Virus record (IMG/VR): IMGVR_UViG_3300037502_001154
Location: 1-29,059 of that record
Length of the DNA: 29,059 bases
Strand: one strand, 5' to 3'
Origin: a virus
How positions within the stretch are numbered: the stretch's first letter is position 1; each line of letters starts with the position of its first letter. The translations under genes and the position numbers were made by a program. The notes under the pieces are model-generated. The model was not told the origin of the DNA. It did no database searches and worked only from the letters and a program-made list of their open reading frames with translations. Below, piece by piece: positions 2,787-12,462 of this stretch.

Positions 2787-2969
2787 ATGCTACACTGCTC
2801 CACACTACAAGAGCGAGAGAAAGAGAACTGGAAAGATCGGATTAAGACAAAGAGAGACTATGATATTGCGGTAGCTAGTGGGATCGGTTTTGTCGTGTAC
2901 AGAGACTTGCCGTTATCGTGGTCGGATTGTTTGAAAGAGCTAGAAGAGGAGAATAAAGAAATTGAATAA
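2787..2969 (+). CDS. Small hypothetical protein, 60 aa
   Basis: A charged 60-residue protein (MLHCSTLQ at the start, EEENKEIE at the end) with no recognised domain. Two in-frame ATGs are available: 2781 directly abuts the AAGGAGG at 2774-2780, while 2787 has a normal 6-nt spacing, so 2787 is chosen. The last 8 nt overlap the TTG start of the following thiol-redox gene. The function is unknown. Confidence 0.6.
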   Translation: MLHCSTLQEREKENWKDRIKTKRDYDIAVASGIGFVVYRDLPLSWSDCLKELEEENKEIE

Positions 2970-3195
2970 AAAGATTATTATTGTGTCTGCGAGCTGGTGC
3001 AAACAGTGCTCTGTACTAAAAGACTTGCTAACTCGTAATGAAGTTATGTATCATGTTATTGACGCGGATGAAGACATTGGCATGAGCTTTTGCAAAGAAA
3101 TGAATGTAAAATCTCTTCCCACTACATTCATGTATGAAGATGATAAGATTGTAAAAGTTATTAATGGTGTTAAAAATCTTGAGGAGTATGTATGA
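2962..3195 (+). CDS. Thioredoxin/glutaredoxin-like thiol-disulfide protein
   Basis: A 77-residue single-domain protein with a redox site WCKQC (residues 13-17) near the N-terminus and a cis-proline loop KSLPTTF at about residues 51-57, the two hallmarks of the thioredoxin fold. Its length fits glutaredoxin or NrdH rather than full thioredoxin. The likely role is reduction of the C-terminal cysteine pair of the phage NrdA encoded 3 kb downstream. Translation starts at TTG; a GGAG lies about 10 nt upstream, and the start overlaps the previous gene. The gene end overlaps thyX by 4 nt. Confidence 0.85.
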   Translation: MNKKIIIVSASWCKQCSVLKDLLTRNEVMYHVIDADEDIGMSFCKEMNVKSLPTTFMYEDDKIVKVINGVKNLEEYV

Positions 3196-3872
3196 CAGAA
3201 GTTAAGTTTGTTGATATGAAAGTGGACTATGTGGATCACATGGGGTCGGATATTAATGTAGTCAATGCTGCTCGTGTGAGCTTTGCTAAAGAATCTAAAG
3301 AGTTTAACCTTGAAAAAGATACTAAACTGATTGAGTATCTTGCTAAACATAATCATTGGAGTCCTCTGGCCCACACATCAGTCAGTATTCGCGTAAAGGC
3401 TCCAATCTTCATGGCACGTCAGTTTGTAAAACATCAGATTGGTCTTGTTTGGAACGAAGAGAGTCGTCGCTATATTGATGATACCCCAGAGTTTTACAAA
3501 CCCTCTGTTTGGCGTAGTCGTCCAGAAAATGCAAAACAAGGTAGTGGGGATGAAATCGTGTCCCCGGTCATTAAGGATCATGGGTGGATGACTGACCCTC
3601 TGACACTGGCGACTATTTCATCATTTAGGTGCTATGTAAGCCTGCTGGATCAATGTGTGGCTCCCGAGCAAGCTAGGATGGTACTACCACAAAACACAAT
3701 GACTAACTGGATTTGGACTGGTTCTCTTGTTGCCTTTGCTCGTGTAGTAAAGCTTCGTATAGAAGAACATGCTCAAAAAGAAGCACAAGAGCTTGCAAAA
3801 CTGATTGAAGAAGTTGTTGCTCCGTTGTACCCTGTAAGCTGGAAAGCCTTGATGACTCATATGAAAGTTTAA
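3192..3872 (+). CDS. thyX: Flavin-dependent thymidylate synthase ThyX
   Basis: Converts dUMP to dTMP using methylene-tetrahydrofolate, NADPH and FAD. The 226-residue length is typical. The fold landmarks are NAARVSFAK near residue 25, HWSPLAHTS near 55, the FAD/dUMP signature at 80-93 and QARMVLP near 160 (substrate-binding arginine). The signature is atypical: Lys80-His81-Gln82, then eight residues to Ser91 (SRRY), whereas the textbook motif is RHRX7S. The surrounding residues match so well that this looks like a phage subfamily rather than a dead enzyme. It starts with ATG after GAGGAG and is part of the dNTP-synthesis operon with nrdB and nrdA. Confidence 0.93.
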   Translation: MTEVKFVDMKVDYVDHMGSDINVVNAARVSFAKESKEFNLEKDTKLIEYLAKHNHWSPLAHTSVSIRVKAPIFMARQFVKHQIGLVWNEESRRYIDDTPEFYKPSVWRSRPENAKQGSGDEIVSPVIKDHGWMTDPLTLATISSFRCYVSLLDQCVAPEQARMVLPQNTMTNWIWTGSLVAFARVVKLRIEEHAQKEAQELAKLIEEVVAPLYPVSWKALMTHMKV

Positions 3873-3882
3873 GGAGAAATAA

Positions 3883-4068
3883 ATGAAAATCAATAACGAT
3901 TATCCATTATCTACATGGCTAGTGGATTTGCGTGATATTATATCTAAACGAGAACTGAAAGCTAAGAAAGATGTTCTTATTGAGATTGTAGAAGATATTG
4001 AAGAGATTCTAGATATGTACGAACAAGGTATGATGCCTCAACAAGTATATGAAGAAATGGTTGAATAA
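3883..4068 (+). CDS. Small hypothetical acidic helical protein, 61 aa
   Basis: A strongly acidic, almost wholly helical 61-residue protein (begins MKINNDYPLSTW, ends YEEMVE) with a clear AAGGAG site 6 nt before the ATG. It has no known motif. It sits between thyX and a 138-aa unknown in the same operon. The charge suggests a small protein-binding or inhibitor protein, but nothing in the sequence proves this. Confidence 0.65.
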   Translation: MKINNDYPLSTWLVDLRDIISKRELKAKKDVLIEIVEDIEEILDMYEQGMMPQQVYEEMVE

Positions 4069-4079
4069 GGAGAGTTGAT

Positions 4080-4496
4080 GTGCCTACGCCTCGCAGTCTA
4101 AGTTTTTATGATTTGAAAAAATGTGTACCCGGCAGTATTGGGATTATGGAGCGGAACAATGAAGAAGAGATTCTAAATCTTCTAGAGCAATTGGGGTTTG
4201 ATCGAGTAATGGGATATGAAATCGAAGTATGTTGGCACAGAGCACTAACTACTAACGAACCTATCTATGGGCCACGAATCACGGGCTTTGAATCTTGTTC
4301 TGGAGAATGGCTAGCTAGTGGCCTAGCAAGTGCAGAAGCAATTTTAGATAGTTGTACAGACAAGACATTGCGAGATGAGCTTGTCAGGATGAATAAACAA
4401 GGTTCTTGTGATAAAACGTGGCATAATGAACAAACAGCTAAGTCTGTAATTCGTCAAGAAAAAGAAGCAAAAGAACGGGAAAGTAAGGAGAACTGA
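4080..4496 (+). CDS. Hypothetical protein, 138 aa
   Basis: Starts at GTG 4080, 7 nt after AAGGAG (4067-4072); an ATG at 4078 is in another frame and closes after seven codons. The centre contains a beta-like segment (GYEIEVCWHRAL, then PRITGFESC), and the last 35 residues are highly charged (Lys/Glu-rich tail ending ERESKEN). I do not recognise a family. The coding end overlaps the nrdB ATG by one base (TGATG), so it is probably coupled to nrdB translation. Confidence 0.65.
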   Translation: MPTPRSLSFYDLKKCVPGSIGIMERNNEEEILNLLEQLGFDRVMGYEIEVCWHRALTTNEPIYGPRITGFESCSGEWLASGLASAEAILDSCTDKTLRDELVRMNKQGSCDKTWHNEQTAKSVIRQEKEAKERESKEN

Positions 4497-5518
4497 TGAA
4501 GCAGTATCTGAGTAAAATTGAAACACCAACTGATTCTTATGTAACACACTATCCTTGGGCTGTAGAGATGACTATTAAGCAACAATCTCTATTTTGGCCT
4601 GCCGAAGAACTTGGTGTAGATGAAGATGAACAAGACTTTAGAACTAAACTAAATAAAGCAGAACTTCATGGGGTTCTATTTGCACAGTCGATTCTAACTC
4701 AGTACGAATTAATGATTGGTGGTAATGAGCTTTGGGGTGGTAAGATTGCAAAGCTGTTCCCACGACCAGAGATTCAACGGATGGCTGCTTGCTTCGCTAA
4801 TGTTGAGCTTGGTAGCCATGCACCGTTCTACGATCTTGGTAACAAAGTATTGGGTAAGGCAACAGATGAATTTTACACTCAATGGAAACAAGAGCCTGTA
4901 CTTGCAGAACGGATTAAGTTTATTGAAGAATGTGCATCAAGCAACGACGCTCTTGAAGTGACAGCAGCTTTGGCATTCCTTGAAGGGGCTATTCTTTTCT
5001 CTGTGTTTGGGTTCTTTAAAGGTTTTAATAGTCGCGGTTTCAACATGATCCCTCATTTCGTGAGCGGTATCGATGGCTCCGCTAAGGATGAAAACTTTCA
5101 CTCCATTGGTTCTGCCAACTTGTTCCGTCAGTGCAAGGCAGAACGTAAAGAAGCAGGTAATCACAGTACCAGACGGGACAATATCCTTAAAGATAAAATC
5201 CGTAAAATGGCTGAAGATGTCTACGAACATGAAAAACTGATTATCAGCAAAATGTTTGAAGTGAAAGGTAATCGCGTGGTAACGGAAGAAGAATGTATTG
5301 ACTTCCTTGAAGATCGAATTAACATTGTTCTTGGTCGTCTAGAAATGGAACCAATGTTTGACAAGAAATCTGGTGAAATCAGTAAGTGGTTTTATCAACA
5401 ACTTTCTACTGTAAAAGTTCCTGATTTCTTTGCTGCTACACAACTACAATACACCCGCAATTGGGCAAAACATAAGTTGGCTTTTAATAAGGAGATGGTT
5501 AATGGGTTTTCATCTTAA
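4496..5518 (+). CDS. nrdB: Class I ribonucleotide reductase small subunit (NrdB)
   Basis: Houses the di-metal cofactor and tyrosyl radical used by NrdA to reduce ribonucleotides. Landmarks: FPRPEIQRM anchors the helix that carries Glu104 and His108 (E. coli E115/H118), with Tyr112 four residues after the histidine as in E. coli Y122; Glu163 in FLEGAIL; and Glu199/His202 in DENFH. Two departures are visible. The first metal ligand appears to be Glu71 (TQYE), not Asp. The spacing between Glu104 and His108 is ExxxH, not ExxH. The last 17 nt overlap the HNH-AP2 gene, whose ribosome site (5489-5494) also lies inside nrdB, so the C-terminal tail that should dock on NrdA ends in NGFSS. Confidence 0.93.
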   Translation: MKQYLSKIETPTDSYVTHYPWAVEMTIKQQSLFWPAEELGVDEDEQDFRTKLNKAELHGVLFAQSILTQYELMIGGNELWGGKIAKLFPRPEIQRMAACFANVELGSHAPFYDLGNKVLGKATDEFYTQWKQEPVLAERIKFIEECASSNDALEVTAALAFLEGAILFSVFGFFKGFNSRGFNMIPHFVSGIDGSAKDENFHSIGSANLFRQCKAERKEAGNHSTRRDNILKDKIRKMAEDVYEHEKLIISKMFEVKGNRVVTEEECIDFLEDRINIVLGRLEMEPMFDKKSGEISKWFYQQLSTVKVPDFFAATQLQYTRNWAKHKLAFNKEMVNGFSS

Positions 5519-8068: not shown

Positions 8069-8995
8069 ATGGAATTTAAAAAATTTAGTAGTCTGGAAAA
8101 TACTTACCGTCAAAACCTGATTGACAAGGTACAGCATGAAGGTAAGGATGTTGGTCTATGGATTGCAACCGAGAAGATTCATGGCGCTAACTTCAGCTTT
8201 TGGTGTGATGGTACAGAAGTAAAAGTTGCAAGTCGAACCCAATTTGTTGATGGTACATTCTTCAATTGCCAAGCTGTTATTAACCGCTACTCTCAAGGTA
8301 TTTTTGATTGGTGTGTTCGTAACGATGTGCAAGACTTTACCGTCTATGGTGAACTGTACGGTAAAGGAGTGCAGAAAGAAGTAGAGTATGGTGAACGTGA
8401 CTTCAGAGCTTTTGACGTTGTGATCGACGGGGTTGTGCAAGACAAACTTAGTGCTCTATCTATTGCAAAAGATTGTGGACTCTTGTTCACTCCGGTTATC
8501 AAGGTGGGGTCGTTTAAAGAATGTCTAGAGCTTTCAAACAAGTTTCAATCTTGGTTAACTCCAGACGAATTTATCACCCAAGAGAATTTGGCGGAAGGTC
8601 TTGTAATCGAGCCTGTAGAGCCTAACTGGTTTAACAACGGAAGTCGTATCTACTTCAAAAACAAAACTGAAGGTTTTAGTGAAAAGAAACGAGAATCTAA
8701 AGAGAAGGTAGTGTTTGAACTATCAAAAGAGGAATCAAGCCTTATGAACGAGCTTCTTCAGTACAGCACAGAACAGCGTGTTTCAAATGTTCTGTCCAAG
8801 ATTGGTCAAGTAAGTCACAAGGACTTTGGTAAGATTCTTGGTCTAACCGTGCAAGATATTTTTGAAGAGTTTACTAAGGACACCGAGCGTGACCCAAAGG
8901 AAGAAGCTGAAAATAATTGGAAGCAGTTCGTTAAACTATTCCAAGCAGAAGTTTCCAAAACTGTACGCACTAAGTTTCTGGAGATTGTAGAATGA
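8069..8995 (+). CDS. RNA ligase, T4 Rnl2 type
   Basis: An ATP-dependent nucleotidyltransferase that seals nicks in RNA. Motif I is ATEKIHGANFSF with the adenylated lysine at Lys36 (T4 Rnl2 uses Lys35). Motif III is around YGELYGKG and FRAFDVVIDG, motif IV is EGLVIEP and motif V is IYFKNKTEGFSEKK. The C-terminal 90 residues are helical, matching the Rnl2 C-terminal domain that specifies RNA ends. At 308 residues it is close to the family length. The start is ATG after GAGGAGG. In phages such ligases repair RNAs cut by host anticodon nucleases. No polynucleotide kinase is visible here, although the HAD protein at 1751 or the phosphoesterase at 366 could process ends. Confidence 0.9.
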   Translation: MEFKKFSSLENTYRQNLIDKVQHEGKDVGLWIATEKIHGANFSFWCDGTEVKVASRTQFVDGTFFNCQAVINRYSQGIFDWCVRNDVQDFTVYGELYGKGVQKEVEYGERDFRAFDVVIDGVVQDKLSALSIAKDCGLLFTPVIKVGSFKECLELSNKFQSWLTPDEFITQENLAEGLVIEPVEPNWFNNGSRIYFKNKTEGFSEKKRESKEKVVFELSKEESSLMNELLQYSTEQRVSNVLSKIGQVSHKDFGKILGLTVQDIFEEFTKDTERDPKEEAENNWKQFVKLFQAEVSKTVRTKFLEIVE

Positions 8996-9480: not shown

Positions 9481-9843
9481 TTATTTATTCACGATATTCG
9501 TGTTAGTGTTTGTAACTCTGGCTGGAGTAGTCCTCTTAGCCTCAAGAGCTTTCATTCTTTCTTCTAGAACATCAACTCTTCGACTCATATTAACCTGATA
9601 GCTGTCTTGATTAGAAGCAATCCGGTTGGCCTTATCCTCCAAGTACATAAAATTAGATTGATTTACTTTATTTACTTCCCGCCGCAACTCATACAAAGCT
9701 ACTTCGTAGTTTGAAAAGTCTGATCTATAATTGTCATTCCTCAAAAGAATAGTCATTATGGTGATGGCAAGAAGAAGGAAGGTGCAGTTTACAGTGAGGT
9801 TTAATGTTTTCCAAAACAAGTCGCCTTTCCTTCTGTCTGTCAT
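9481..9843 (-). CDS. Small membrane protein with coiled-coil tail, 120 aa
   Basis: One hydrophobic segment at about residues 14-35 (LNLTVNCTFLLLAITIMTILL) preceded by positive charges (MTDRRKGD), so an N-in topology is likely. A long charged, coiled-coil-prone stretch follows, then a Thr/Asn-rich end. This single-span plus coiled-coil layout repeats in the gene just upstream at 9850. They are the last two genes of the late operon, after the lysis cassette. Possible roles are lysis timing or superinfection exclusion, but the family is not recognised. Confidence 0.65.
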   Translation of the reverse strand: MTDRRKGDLFWKTLNLTVNCTFLLLAITIMTILLRNDNYRSDFSNYEVALYELRREVNKVNQSNFMYLEDKANRIASNQDSYQVNMSRRVDVLEERMKALEAKRTTPARVTNTNTNIVNK

Positions 9844-9849
9844 TTTGAA

Positions 9850-10128
9850 TTACTTCTTATCTAAATAGAAAGTAAGGATTTGCCTCACGTCTGCTCTGAT
9901 AGCTTCATTATTATTAGTAAGGCGAGTCTCTAGTTCTTTAAGCTCTGTCTTAGTAACAGAAGTTCTATAAAGTTCTAACACTTTCGTATTAAGCTCTTTA
10001 ATTTCTTGTTTTGATTCATTCTTATCTGCCCAATACTGTGTCTGTACAACACCAAGCAAAATCATGAGAAGACCAATAGCAGCCCTCTCCCATAAATTAT
10101 TGATTCGGTGGTTTGCACTATCACTCAT
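9850..10128 (-). CDS. Small membrane protein with coiled-coil tail, 92 aa
   Basis: The chosen ATG at 10128 follows GAGG (10141-10138) by 9 nt; a TTG at 10143 would add five residues but lacks a ribosome site. One transmembrane segment lies near residues 18-36 (IGLLMILLGVVQTQYW), then a charged coiled coil to the end (ELETRLTNN, FYLDKK). The ribosome site and start overlap the stop of the o-spanin remnant (10121-10279), so before the AP2 gene arrived this gene was probably coupled to the o-spanin gene. Function unknown. Confidence 0.65.
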   Translation of the reverse strand: MSDSANHRINNLWERAAIGLLMILLGVVQTQYWADKNESKQEIKELNTKVLELYRTSVTKTELKELETRLTNNNEAIRADVRQILTFYLDKK

Positions 10129-10279
10129 TGTATACAGCCTCAATTTCAGTTTTATACTTACGTTGCTTTTCTAGTAGAAGCATGTACTTACCAACACAAG
10201 ACGTATTGGTTACGTAGCCTTTTGCAAGAAAGGACTTGACAACGCTGTTTGTTTTTAAATAGTATAACCTTTTCACCAT
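10121..10279 (-). pseudogene. Orphan duplicate of the o-spanin 3' end
   Basis: Translating the - strand from about 10246 to the TGA at 10121-10123 gives a peptide containing YVTNTSCVGKYMLLLEKQ then RKYKTEI. This aligns without gaps, over 31 residues, to the C-terminus of the lipoprotein gene at 10953-11231 (YISNTICIGKYRLLLDKQ then KKYKDQI); 17 of the 31 are identical. No signal peptide or lipobox is present. The first in-frame ATG (10279) only adds unrelated residues, so this looks like a severed original 3' end rather than a functional gene. The AP2 gene lies between the two copies. Confidence 0.75.
10236..10265 (+). promoter_or_regulatory. Putative promoter of the AP2 gene
   Basis: A perfect -35 TTGACA (10236-10241), an 18-nt spacer and TAGTAT (10260-10265); an overlapping TATAAC at 10263 would need a 21-nt spacer. 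It faces rightward, against the late operon, directly before the AP2 gene that otherwise has no co-directional transcription. Confidence 0.4.
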
Positions 10280-10293
10280 ATAAGGGAACCATA

Positions 10294-10962
10294 ATGAAAT
10301 TTGTTCAAAACGTGGGTAAGAATGATGCCGAATATCCAGTAAACCCCCTAGTCAATGGTAAAAGAGAAATCTGCCCATTTTACCGTACTTGGGTTGACAT
10401 GCTTACTCGGTGTTACAATCCTAGGGTTAAGCAAAAGCAACCAACCTACTCAAACTGTACAGTTTGTGAAGAATGGCTAACATTCTCAAAATTCAAAGCT
10501 TGGATGGAACTCCAACGCTGGCAAGGTATGCGGCTAGACAAAGACCTGTTATACCCAGGTAATACTCAGTATAGTCCCCAGACTTGCGTATTTGTCCCAA
10601 ATGCTATAAACTGTATCTTTGGGACATGCGGGGCTTCTCGTGGCGAATATCCAATTGGAGTGTCTAAAGACAAGATTTCGAAGGATATGGTAAATTTTCT
10701 TAAGAAACCGTTCAGGGCAGCCGTTCAAACCTTAAGTGGCACACGTAAACACTTGGGTATGTATGCTACCGCAATGGAGGCCCATGCCGCATGGCAACTG
10801 GCAAAAGTAGAAGTTATTCGTGAGTATGTATTGTGGTGGGAGTTTGAACCAGCTGTGAGCCAAACTTTTAATATTAAGATAGCAGAAAACTTACTATCTG
10901 TAGCAACAAATATAGAGAAAGACTTACAACAGCGCGTAGAGACTGTCAGATTCTATTTTTGA
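10294..10962 (+). CDS. AP2-domain homing-type nuclease in opposite orientation
   Basis: A 222-residue protein on the + strand inside the leftward late operon. The first part (FYRTWVDMLTRCYNP, TVCEEW, LDKDLLYPGNTQYSP, TCVFVP) follows the pattern of phage HNH/His-Me-like proteins that precede AP2 domains, although a classical HNH triad is not obvious. The second part from about residue 125 is an AP2-like domain (PIGVSKD, PFRAAV, LGMYATAMEAHAAW). ATG 10294 is used; the in-frame start at 10249 has no ribosome site. The 3' end overlaps the o-spanin stop by 10 nt tail-to-tail. It separates that gene from the duplicated 3' remnant, so it appears to be a recent mobile insertion. Nuclease activity is inferred. 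Confidence 0.75.
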   Translation: MKFVQNVGKNDAEYPVNPLVNGKREICPFYRTWVDMLTRCYNPRVKQKQPTYSNCTVCEEWLTFSKFKAWMELQRWQGMRLDKDLLYPGNTQYSPQTCVFVPNAINCIFGTCGASRGEYPIGVSKDKISKDMVNFLKKPFRAAVQTLSGTRKHLGMYATAMEAHAAWQLAKVEVIREYVLWWEFEPAVSQTFNIKIAENLLSVATNIEKDLQQRVETVRFYF

Positions 10963-11231
10963 TATAGGTTTAGAATCTGGTCTTTGTACTTTTTCTGTTT
11001 ATCTAGTAAAAGCCTATATTTTCCTATACATATGGTATTGGAAATATAGGCTTTTGATAAACTTCTAACAGTCTCACCAGCTTCAATAGCCTCACAAGGG
11101 TCAACAAGGAGGCTATCAGGCATCACATGCACTCTATCTTTGTATACTGTTATCGAAGCTTTGTTTGAGCATCCTGACAAGCTCAACAGGAAGAGCATCG
11201 TCAAGCCCAGCAACATTGTTTTCTTGAACAT
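10953..11231 (-). CDS. Rz1-like o-spanin lipoprotein
   Basis: A 92-residue protein with a lipoprotein signal: basic start MFKKT, hydrophobic core LLGLTMLFLLSL and lipobox LSGC, which predicts processing at Cys21 and anchoring in the outer membrane. The mature part has a few more cysteines (VDPCEAIEAG, NTICIG) and a basic coiled end. It begins inside the i-spanin gene in another frame (98-nt overlap), the classic Rz/Rz1 embedding. The two proteins would fuse inner and outer membranes in the last step of lysis. Its C-terminal part is duplicated downstream, beyond the AP2 gene, and may be a donor-derived replacement. Confidence 0.8.
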   Translation of the reverse strand: MFKKTMLLGLTMLFLLSLSGCSNKASITVYKDRVHVMPDSLLVDPCEAIEAGETVRSLSKAYISNTICIGKYRLLLDKQKKYKDQILNLYQK

Positions 11232-11547
11232 TGTCTTCTCTCTTTGGCTTATCTTGTTTAATAGGCTTACTTGGAAGTTTGTCTATCTCTGTCAGAATAT
11301 CCTTCTCTTTTTGATCAAGAACACCCTTTTCCTCAATGAAATCAGATACTATTTCTTCTTGAATCTTGCAAGCTGTCTCTTGATTCAGCATGGAGCTTTC
11401 AAGCGATTTGTAGTCTGTTTTTAATTGAGTTAGTTGACTTTCTACCACTGCTTTTTTAGAGTAAAATGTGTACGAGAGATAACCAAACAATCCATTGAAA
11501 GAGAGGGAAATAAGAAGTGCAAGAATAAGTGGTTTATTTAGAATCAT
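11134..11547 (-). CDS. Rz-like i-spanin
   Basis: A 137-residue inner-membrane protein: an N-terminal transmembrane helix (PLILALLISLSFNGLFGYL), then a periplasmic coiled coil (SQLTQLKTDYKSLES onward) and a charged linker region. This is the layout of Rz-type i-spanins, which bind the outer-membrane o-spanin. ATG 11547 is preferred because AAGGAGG lies 9 nt upstream; the extended start 13 codons earlier is inside the holin gene without a site. The o-spanin gene begins within its 3' third. Classified by topology and context, as spanins share little sequence. Confidence 0.8.
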   Translation of the reverse strand: MILNKPLILALLISLSFNGLFGYLSYTFYSKKAVVESQLTQLKTDYKSLESSMLNQETACKIQEEIVSDFIEEKGVLDQKEKDILTEIDKLPSKPIKQDKPKREDNVQENNVAGLDDALPVELVRMLKQSFDNSIQR

Positions 11548-11794
11548 CTTCCATTCCTCCTTTACACTCTTGCCTAATATCATCAAGCCCCTGATCTATT
11601 ACTCTACCTATCAGACCTAATAAACCTAAAGGTAGAGTAATCGCTAGTAAGATTGGTAAACTAACCTGAACACTTATAACGCCCACTATTGAAAGTCCGG
11701 TTACGCTGAGAGCTACAAGAATGTTTGCAATAATGGAAAGACTAGAATAAGATTTAAGGAGTCTTTGCTTCCAGTTCTTTGCGAGCTTTTTCAA
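11534..11794 (-). CDS. Holin candidate, two transmembrane segments
   Basis: About 86 residues with two hydrophobic segments (SIIANILVALSVTGLSIVGVI and SLPILLAITLPLGLLGLIG), a basic N-terminus and a charged tail after GRVIDQ. That plan fits small phage holins of the DUF7940-like kind. It lies between the endolysin and the spanin pair, where a holin is expected. No ATG exists near the start. TTG 11794 has GAGG at 6-nt spacing and is preferred; TTG 11815 would lengthen it by seven residues. It overlaps both neighbours. A SAR endolysin next door could also pair with a pinholin. Confidence 0.7.
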   Translation of the reverse strand: MKKLAKNWKQRLLKSYSSLSIIANILVALSVTGLSIVGVISVQVSLPILLAITLPLGLLGLIGRVIDQGLDDIRQECKGGMEDDSK

Positions 11795-12326
11795 ATTCCA
11801 CCTCAAATGCTTCAAATGCTTTTTGTTTATCCCAACTCAGCTCACCGAGACAATACGACATTGTGTTCTGTCTTCTAGTGACAAGACCTCTCAGTGTCCT
11901 ACCGCCAGCATATACCCATCGCGTAAGCTGTCTACAAGCCTCTACGTGTTTGTTTTGGTTCAGTAGCTTAATGAGGGTACTGCTTCTGACATTCCCCAGT
12001 CCTACGTTAAAGGTGAAGTCTGTAAGAGATTCTTTCTGCCATTCTGACGCATAGGGAACTTTGACAACAGAATCTAGTTGCCTTTGATGTTTCTTCCAAT
12101 CTTCGGCAAACATTTCCATACATTCTTCAATGCTGAATTTCTGCCCAAGTTTAAGAGAGCGATCCATTCTTCCAACGCATACAGTTGGTAAGTTAACAGG
12201 GTCTAAATATACTTCTTGATGAAACCCTTCGCTGGGGAGTGTTAAATCATAAGCAACAAAAGCAGCAGAGCTAGAAAGCCCCGCTGCAATAAAGGCTACT
12301 ATGAGTTTTTGTTTTAAAGGGTGCAT
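11754..12326 (-). CDS. Endolysin, GH24 lysozyme with N-terminal SAR segment
   Basis: Hydrolyses peptidoglycan. The 190-residue protein carries the T4-lysozyme-type catalytic triad Glu33, then eight residues to Asp42, then five to Thr48 (SEGFHQEVYLD, PVNLPT). Later family landmarks are FTFNVGLGN and LTRWVYAGG. The N-terminus is a weakly hydrophobic Ala/Gly/Ser-rich helix (LIVAFIAAGLSSSAAFVA) directly before the catalytic Glu, as in signal-anchor-release endolysins of P1/P21 type, so export by Sec and activation by membrane release are likely. ATG 12326 starts 1 nt after the stop of the 44-aa gene upstream and is probably coupled to it. Confidence 0.9.
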   Translation of the reverse strand: MHPLKQKLIVAFIAAGLSSSAAFVAYDLTLPSEGFHQEVYLDPVNLPTVCVGRMDRSLKLGQKFSIEECMEMFAEDWKKHQRQLDSVVKVPYASEWQKESLTDFTFNVGLGNVRSSTLIKLLNQNKHVEACRQLTRWVYAGGRTLRGLVTRRQNTMSYCLGELSWDKQKAFEAFEVEFEKARKELEAKTP

Positions 12327-12327
12327 C

Positions 12328-12462
12328 CTAAACTTTAACTCGAACAAAAGAAGCAATTGTGCCGTTTCCAGCAACAGTAAACTTAACTCTAGCAGTAATC
12401 AAAATTCCACCTATTCTGACAAATCTTTTAATGTGTTCTGGTTTAAATTCAAACTGTCTCAT
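12328..12462 (-). CDS. Small 44-aa gene between tailspike and endolysin
   Basis: An open frame from ATG 12462 to TAG 12328. The start overlaps the tailspike stop and the end is 1 nt from the endolysin ATG, leaving no unused bases. The product (begins [14 protein letters not shown]) has a beta-strand-like second half ([23 protein letters not shown]). No strong ribosome site is present (GCGGAA only). It could be a real small fibre accessory protein, or the frameshifted last strand segment of the tailspike. Its tight fit between two genes is the main support. Confidence 0.5.

Follow-up and report, generated by a model that had tools for sequence, protein, structure and literature searches.

A probable homing-endonuclease element in a phage o-spanin gene that carries a recoded copy of the severed gene end

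Homing endonucleases are usually thought to spare the genes that they target by staying within an intron or intein or by occupying intergenic positions. In fungal mitochondria, mobile ORFs that create hybrid genes have been described, namely in atp6 of Allomyces macrogynus and in atp6, atp9, cox2 and nad3 of Glomus (PMC3630166), with further cases in Rhizopus atp9 and Mortierella cox2 (PMC3630166 and references 30 and 48 therein). There, an endonuclease ORF of the LAGLIDADG or GIY-YIG type sits in a coding gene, a divergent C-terminus completes that gene, and the native C-terminus lies stranded past the ORF and is closest to the C-terminus of near relatives. In the same paper, a 1992 dissertation on introns of T7-like phages (S. 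Eddy) is cited for homing endonuclease genes (HEGs) that carry coding sequence.

The free-standing endonucleases of phage T4 (the seg and mob genes) are described as either intergenic or gene-splitting, and splitting leads to two cooperating polypeptides, as with mobE in Aeh1 nrdA and mobA in gene 60 (PMC2988022). The study on IPA-HNH proteins by Barth, Dunham and Seed (2023, PMC10448857) deals with free-standing genes, introns, inteins and HEG islands; term searches in it for carried replacement gene ends found none. Finally, synthetic HomeR home-and-rescue drives, which are engineered Cas9 systems in insects (PMC7968924), combine homing into an essential gene with a recoded rescue and costly resistance.

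Here, we describe a locus in a viral genome (the window, that is, the whole stretch of 29,059 nucleotides that was analysed) where, very probably, a homing-endonuclease element has inserted in a phage coding gene, bringing along a recoded version of the part that it severs. The locus lies in the lysis cassette, which runs on the minus strand and comprises a lysozyme gene (11754-12374), a holin-like gene (11534-11815), the i-spanin gene (11134-11547; PHROG 4349, Rz-like spanin, E 3e-9), homologs of which occupy the same position in relatives, and the o-spanin gene (10953-11231, 92 aa). The o-spanin contains the lipobox LSGC and matches a PHROG Rz-like spanin with E 3e-7; its match to Pfam LysC (E 5e-4) is under the curated cut-off. 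It begins within the i-spanin ORF, in another reading frame, and the two genes overlap over 11134-11231. A lipobox lipoprotein, an embedded start and lysozyme and holin-like neighbours are thus all found, as in a two-component (Rz/Rz1) spanin.

Between the o-spanin and the next cassette gene, on the opposite strand, lies a gene for a putative AP2-HNH homing endonuclease resembling IPA-HNH (10294-10962, plus strand, 222 aa), preceded by a leader (10226-10293, plus strand). Beyond the leader follows a headless spanin fragment (10121-10225, minus strand), which encodes LAKGYVTNTSCVGKYMLLLEKQRKYKTEIEAVYNE and a stop, and then the next gene (9850-10128, minus strand), an ORF for a small membrane protein. 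The C-terminus of the intact o-spanin reads LSKAYISNTICIGKYRLLLDKQKKYKDQILNLYQK before its stop; the two ends share the same residue at 19 of the first 33 codons in a gapless alignment. An earlier note on this DNA had placed the intact o-spanin, the AP2 gene and the fragment correctly and had recognized the gapless shared C-terminal domain; its count was 17 of 31 identical residues, against the 19 of 33 here. It drew the fragment up to about 10246; homology to native spanins is clear up to about 10225, and 10226-10293 is the element leader rather than spanin. When the two flanks of the HNH gene were compared by tblastx, they matched with E ~1e-12, while the best of 563 mismatched flank pairs reached 7e-5. 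The stop of the fragment (10121-10123) overlaps the ATG (10128) of the next gene, whose Shine-Dalgarno sequence GAGG (10138-10141) lies inside the fragment, and the 3' part of the fragment may persist for this reason. Elsewhere in the window, 8069-8995 holds a T4 Rnl2-like RNA ligase gene (Pfam T4_Rnl2_C, E 7e-20).

Relatives of the o-spanin were collected by an alignment-based search, which gave 25 viral contigs besides Pseudomonas phage vB_PsaM_M1. Searching viral contigs with the window o-spanin alone gave no match, and a distant DNA search of phages for the cassette matched only Pseudomonas phage M1. The spanin end is single in all 23 relatives that have no HNH gene at the site; 22 of these are informative, as the contig of L127 ends at the site. 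Two copies of the end occur in only two of the 25 relatives, L005/L112 and L006/L123, and both carry an HNH gene there, with 94% and 69% amino acid identity, respectively, to that of the window. In both, the overlap of the HNH gene with the spanin 3' end is like that in the window. The single native ends of L003, L116, L120 and other HEG-less relatives are colinear with the stranded fragment, as the earlier note had expected of relatives lacking the AP2 gene. In most empty relatives, the spanin end adjoins or overlaps the next cassette gene, and the overlap is of the same kind as that of the fragment, which agrees with the earlier view that the undisrupted spanin stop had overlapped this start. 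Three empty relatives (L124, L131 and L133) have other sequence between the spanin end and the next cassette gene. In L015 (L124), a second pair of a small membrane protein and a lipoprotein, possibly a second spanin pair, separates the o-spanin from the next cassette gene (3959-4707), and in L131 and L133 this gap contains inserts about as large.

The insertion point can be placed at base level by comparing L116 (empty) with L005 (= L112, occupied), two close relatives whose next genes are 97% identical. Their spanin genes are almost base-for-base identical up to ...AAAGAAGCTGGATGGTCTGT, and the near-identity reaches ...GGATGGTCTGT, after which the element begins in L005. Past this junction, L116 reads TCGATCATTGGCGAAAGGTTATGTAGAAAACAC... 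and L005 reads AAGGAGTTTATCAAAAGCC..., the window-type end. Beyond the HNH gene, the native sequence of L005 picks up at TTGGC, and about seven native bases are present on neither side. The insertion therefore lies within the conserved codons V-R-S|L-A-K-G-Y. In the window, the bases of L005 and L116 together with the step in identity between the window and L005 place the native/carried junction, and thus the probable insertion point, at 11060-11069 (minus strand, codons V55-R56-S57-L58). Accordingly, the o-spanin gene consists of a native 5' part (11067-11231, minus strand), with the lipoprotein signal and the first ~55 codons, in the same gene position as in empty relatives, and a carried, recoded 3' end (10953 to about 11066, minus strand), with codons 56-92 and the stop, which overlaps the 3' end of the HNH gene by 10 bp. 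These junctions bear out the proposal that the element landed in the spanin gene and left the native 3' end stranded.

The history of the two ends was also followed in a tree of the 33-residue spanin ends, in which most other forks were unresolved. The stranded end of L005 grouped with the native ends of L115, L116 and L118 (88/92), and its carried end grouped with that of the window (96/89). As in Allomyces-type elements, the stranded end is most like the ends of ORF-less relatives and the carried end is divergent. Relative to this backbone, the carried end is foreign; it likely originated within related phages. An HNH gene flanked by two homologous ends could also result if the spanin 3' end had been duplicated in tandem long ago and the HNH gene had landed later between the copies. 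Relatives lacking the AP2 gene and having both copies, which the earlier note had named as a sign of such a duplication, were looked for among the 23 and none was found (0 of 23, 22 informative). In addition, the stranded end goes with the backbone and the working end with the HNH gene, unrelated genes show the same layout with related HNH genes (see below), and the L116/L005 pair contradicts the duplication. We thus consider this explanation extremely unlikely and retain that of an element inserted with its own copy of the gene end.

Comparison of the window with L005 shows that the carried end shares its history with the HNH gene. At the DNA level, both the HNH gene and the carried end are 93% identical, in contrast to the spanin 5' part (64%), the i-spanin (51%), the stranded fragment (55%), the next gene (50%) and the gene after that (46%). 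At the amino acid level, the values are 94% for HNH, 91% for the carried end, 57% for the spanin 5' part and 36% for the next gene. The earlier expectation that the present C-terminus would be shared with another AP2-carrying phage was thus borne out, and with 93-94% identity against 46-64% in the neighbours, the HNH gene and the carried end have moved together between phages. The pattern is reversed in the comparison with L006, where the identity of the next gene reaches 78% (DNA) and 82% (amino acids) and that of HNH only 69%; the element therefore has a history separate from that of the backbone. The synonymous divergence between the window and L005 followed the same lines (dS of 0.295 for HNH and 0.226 for the carried end, against 0.97 for the spanin 5' part and 2.97 for the next gene). 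Nonsynonymous divergence was low (dN of 0.025 for HNH and 0.036 for the carried end), so that both are under purifying selection. Judged from these substitution patterns, the carried end appears to behave like a working spanin tail.

To describe recurrence at other genes, flanks were compared at 164 distinct sites of related HNH genes, with the 563 mismatched flank pairs as control. Besides the spanin carriers, of which only three are known, four sites exceeded every control: L090, L050, L298 and L199. At L090, the gene belongs to PHROG 11543 (function not assigned), the HNH gene runs in the same direction, and a 3' end is stranded. The HEG-less L138-L140 have single ends to which this stranded end is 88-93% identical, against ~63% for the gene's own end. 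The other three sites concern 5' ends. At L050, the stranded native 5' end of ninG (Pfam NinG, E 1e-55), reading MARCKICRDKFEPRFFLQK, is followed by the HNH gene and then by an intact ninG with a recoded start; the HEG-less L203-L205 have N-termini of the stranded type. L298 has a stranded 5' end of the gene for the single-strand binding protein SSB (PHROG 44, E 6e-15), which reads MATTIVGKLNKAATQFQAGES. L199 has a stranded 5' end of an ATP-dependent DNA ligase gene (PHROG 114, E 5e-64), where the stranded copy stops in QPKL, at the catalytic KLDG motif. No near HEG-less relatives of L298 and L199 were found, and the direction of replacement at these two sites therefore rests on the layout. 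The start codon of the restored gene and the HNH stop codon overlap as ATGA at L050 and L199; at the spanin locus, the overlap is between the spanin stop and the end of the HNH gene. In all cases, native and carried ends are similar in protein with 57-71% nucleotide identity, and where their residues are identical, the codons differ in roughly half to three quarters of the cases. At ~155 of the 164 related HNH sites, a duplicated end was undetected, so that carrying an end is either a minority arrangement or one that decays quickly.

Flank duplications at L061, L069 and L071 (E 0.002-0.004) are not claimed, as they are at the level of the control (4 of 563 mismatched pairs). Sites at rIIB, baseplate, nrdB and pnuC genes (L019, L020, L023 and L026), where the HNH start overlaps the stop, were left uncounted as they have no stranded end, which has possibly decayed or was never present. 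The lysozyme gene of L117 is probably a further case. In this contig, a stranded 46-codon native lysozyme N-terminus (2059-2196) ends in YLDPV and is followed by an antisense HNH gene (2207-2836) and a divergent (39%) lysozyme at 2957-3436, the divergence being too great for the flank scan. As a separate observation, L113 has a remnant of a native lysozyme N-terminus (2663-2749) before an unrelated-looking endolysin (ORF after 2750), an apparent non-homologous replacement with no HNH gene at the spot. Furthermore, a second HNH gene lies tail-to-tail near the following cassette gene in L005 (2316-3017) and L006 (2540-3133), and likewise in L113 (5059-5757) and L118 (4838-5530), with no stranded end detected.

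The precise insertion within a conserved motif and the frequent residence of phage HEGs in introns (PMC10448857) could also point to an intron or an intein-like element, in which the mRNA would be spliced from VRS to the stranded LAKGY and the carried end would be mere read-through. However, no Rfam family was found at E<=1 in 9800-11700, and none reached its gathering score in seven carrier loci. The HNH gene and the spanin run in opposite directions, and the carried end forms an intact spanin-like C-terminus that has its own stop and is under purifying selection. In the 5' cases, a full start is supplied anew. This makes splicing a very unlikely explanation, and the element with its carried end is again the reading on which we proceed.

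The window HNH protein belongs to PHROG 953 (HNH endonuclease, E 1.6e-79), and the HNH label is based on PHROG names. A Pfam search of the gene found neither an HNH nor an AP2 domain. At the C-terminus, the family profile matches plant AP2/ERF (WRI1) at residues 124-172 with E 1.3e-5, and the AlphaFold model (pLDDT 86) compares by VIA with WRI1 (Z 6.0) and AtERF1 (Z 5.9). In the N-terminal part, residues 79-109 are predicted to form a strand-strand-helix, in which LDKD stands in place of the DH of canonical HNH motifs. A comparison of the nuclease part with the PDB (Foldseek/VIA) matched no nuclease fold, an absence of match that is not evidence of absence. The protein fits the IPA-HNH architecture of Barth et al. 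(PMC10448857), with a putative divergent HNH-type N-terminal region and a C-terminal AP2 domain, near or within essential genes; the HNH domain of those proteins is likewise invisible to Pfam. The AP2-HNH protein would be expected to cut DNA, and the traces of homing are comparative ones, namely the discordant histories of element and backbone and the precise empty site.

As the catalytic residues are not those of a canonical HNH and the activity is putative, the gene could also be an ordinary, non-mobile AP2 DNA-binding gene, with the spanin end swapped by mosaic recombination, common in phages, and no targeted cutting. Against this stand the position of the insert, which interrupts a gene at a conserved motif and occupies one and the same site in three divergent phages, the repetition of the end-carrying design at unrelated genes and the purifying selection on HNH (dN 0.025, dS 0.30). 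Homing therefore fits better than random exchange, which we regard as unlikely.

The element also contains possible signals for its own transcription. In the leader, TTGACA at 10236 and a -10-like AATAGT/TAGTAT ending at 10263/10265 are the best promoter-like hits of the region, by consensus match only, and TTGACAAC with the promoter-like TTGACA is conserved in all three carriers (window, L005 and L006). Inside the carried end, an imperfect palindrome of 66 nt (10997-11062, no strand assigned) can form a hairpin with a dG of -27.1 and a z of -6.6. The corresponding values are -22.8 and -5.0 in L005 (4692-4777) and -17.7 and -2.2 in L006 (4689-4774); covariation is weak in these three sequences. 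Native spanin ends do not form this hairpin (-7.5 to -16.7, other shapes). In some related HNH genes of these phages (L108, L015 and L128), a GC-rich terminator-like hairpin directly follows the HNH stop. Possibly, the HNH transcript of the spanin element terminates at the palindrome, which would thus lie hidden in the recoded spanin end; on the spanin strand, translation would keep it masked.

Overall, the likeness to the Allomyces atp6 hybrid gene, drawn already in the earlier note, is apt (PMC3630166). Like the fungal mobile ORFs, the element joins an endonuclease ORF in a coding gene to a divergent C-terminus that completes the gene, it strands the native C-terminus, and its DNA has diverged with the protein conserved. 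In contrast to them, it is of the AP2-HNH type and found in phages, and thus works like Allomyces atp6-type elements without being of that lineage. Moreover, the window HNH gene is antisense to the spanin, and the phage elements concern both 5' and 3' ends, whereas the fungal ORFs described in PMC3630166 concern 3' ends only, with no N-terminal case. Compared with T4 seg and mob genes, it is similarly not intron-borne, the cognate sites in relatives are the expected targets, and a neighbouring gene co-travels. Unlike a T4-type HEG, it is inserted within the o-spanin coding sequence and not between genes, and unlike in the T4 splitting cases, the target gene is kept whole by the carried end. 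In the open-access literature, most subscription papers being outside the search, no phage report of a carried replacement end was found; titles on spanins and homing endonucleases included none that obviously describes such a layout. Likewise, no report of the 5'-end version, fungal or phage, was found in the open-access literature. Within this search, the arrangement is new for phages and for the AP2-HNH family, as are the 5' ends; the 3' design is already established in fungal mitochondria.

We propose the following mechanism. The mobile unit would consist of the leader with its promoter, the AP2-HNH gene and the carried spanin 3' end. In a co-infection, the enzyme would cleave the other phage's spanin gene at the conserved codons VRS|LAKGY, and repair from the element-bearing genome would copy the element into the cut gene. 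The 5' part of the recipient gene would then be completed by the carried end, and the recipient's own 3' end would be stranded. Because the carried end is compatible in protein yet different at the site, it would keep the spanin functional and resist cutting. Mutations of the target site tend to harm a conserved motif, and resistance would therefore be costly. The first such element may have arisen from an HEG beside a spanin end, with homologous repair copying it in on one side of the break and a joining without homology on the other.

More broadly, it seems likely that phages host a recurrent 'home-and-rescue' class of AP2-HNH elements that enter coding genes at conserved motifs and in which a recoded 3' or 5' end of the interrupted gene would serve as antidote and as self-protection. 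With respect to HomeR drives (PMC7968924), the window element would be a natural counterpart with the same logic and putative activity, so that the logic of engineered rescue gene drives would exist in nature beyond fungal mitochondria. A spare recoded end, at either end of a gene, would concern genes of lysis, recombination, DNA ligation and single-stranded DNA binding. If true, homing endonucleases would have a fourth means of coexisting with an essential gene, next to introns, inteins and intergenic or splitting insertion. It predicts a route by which conserved phage genes acquire swapped, recoded ends, and the stranded fragments would be datable scars from which homing histories become readable.
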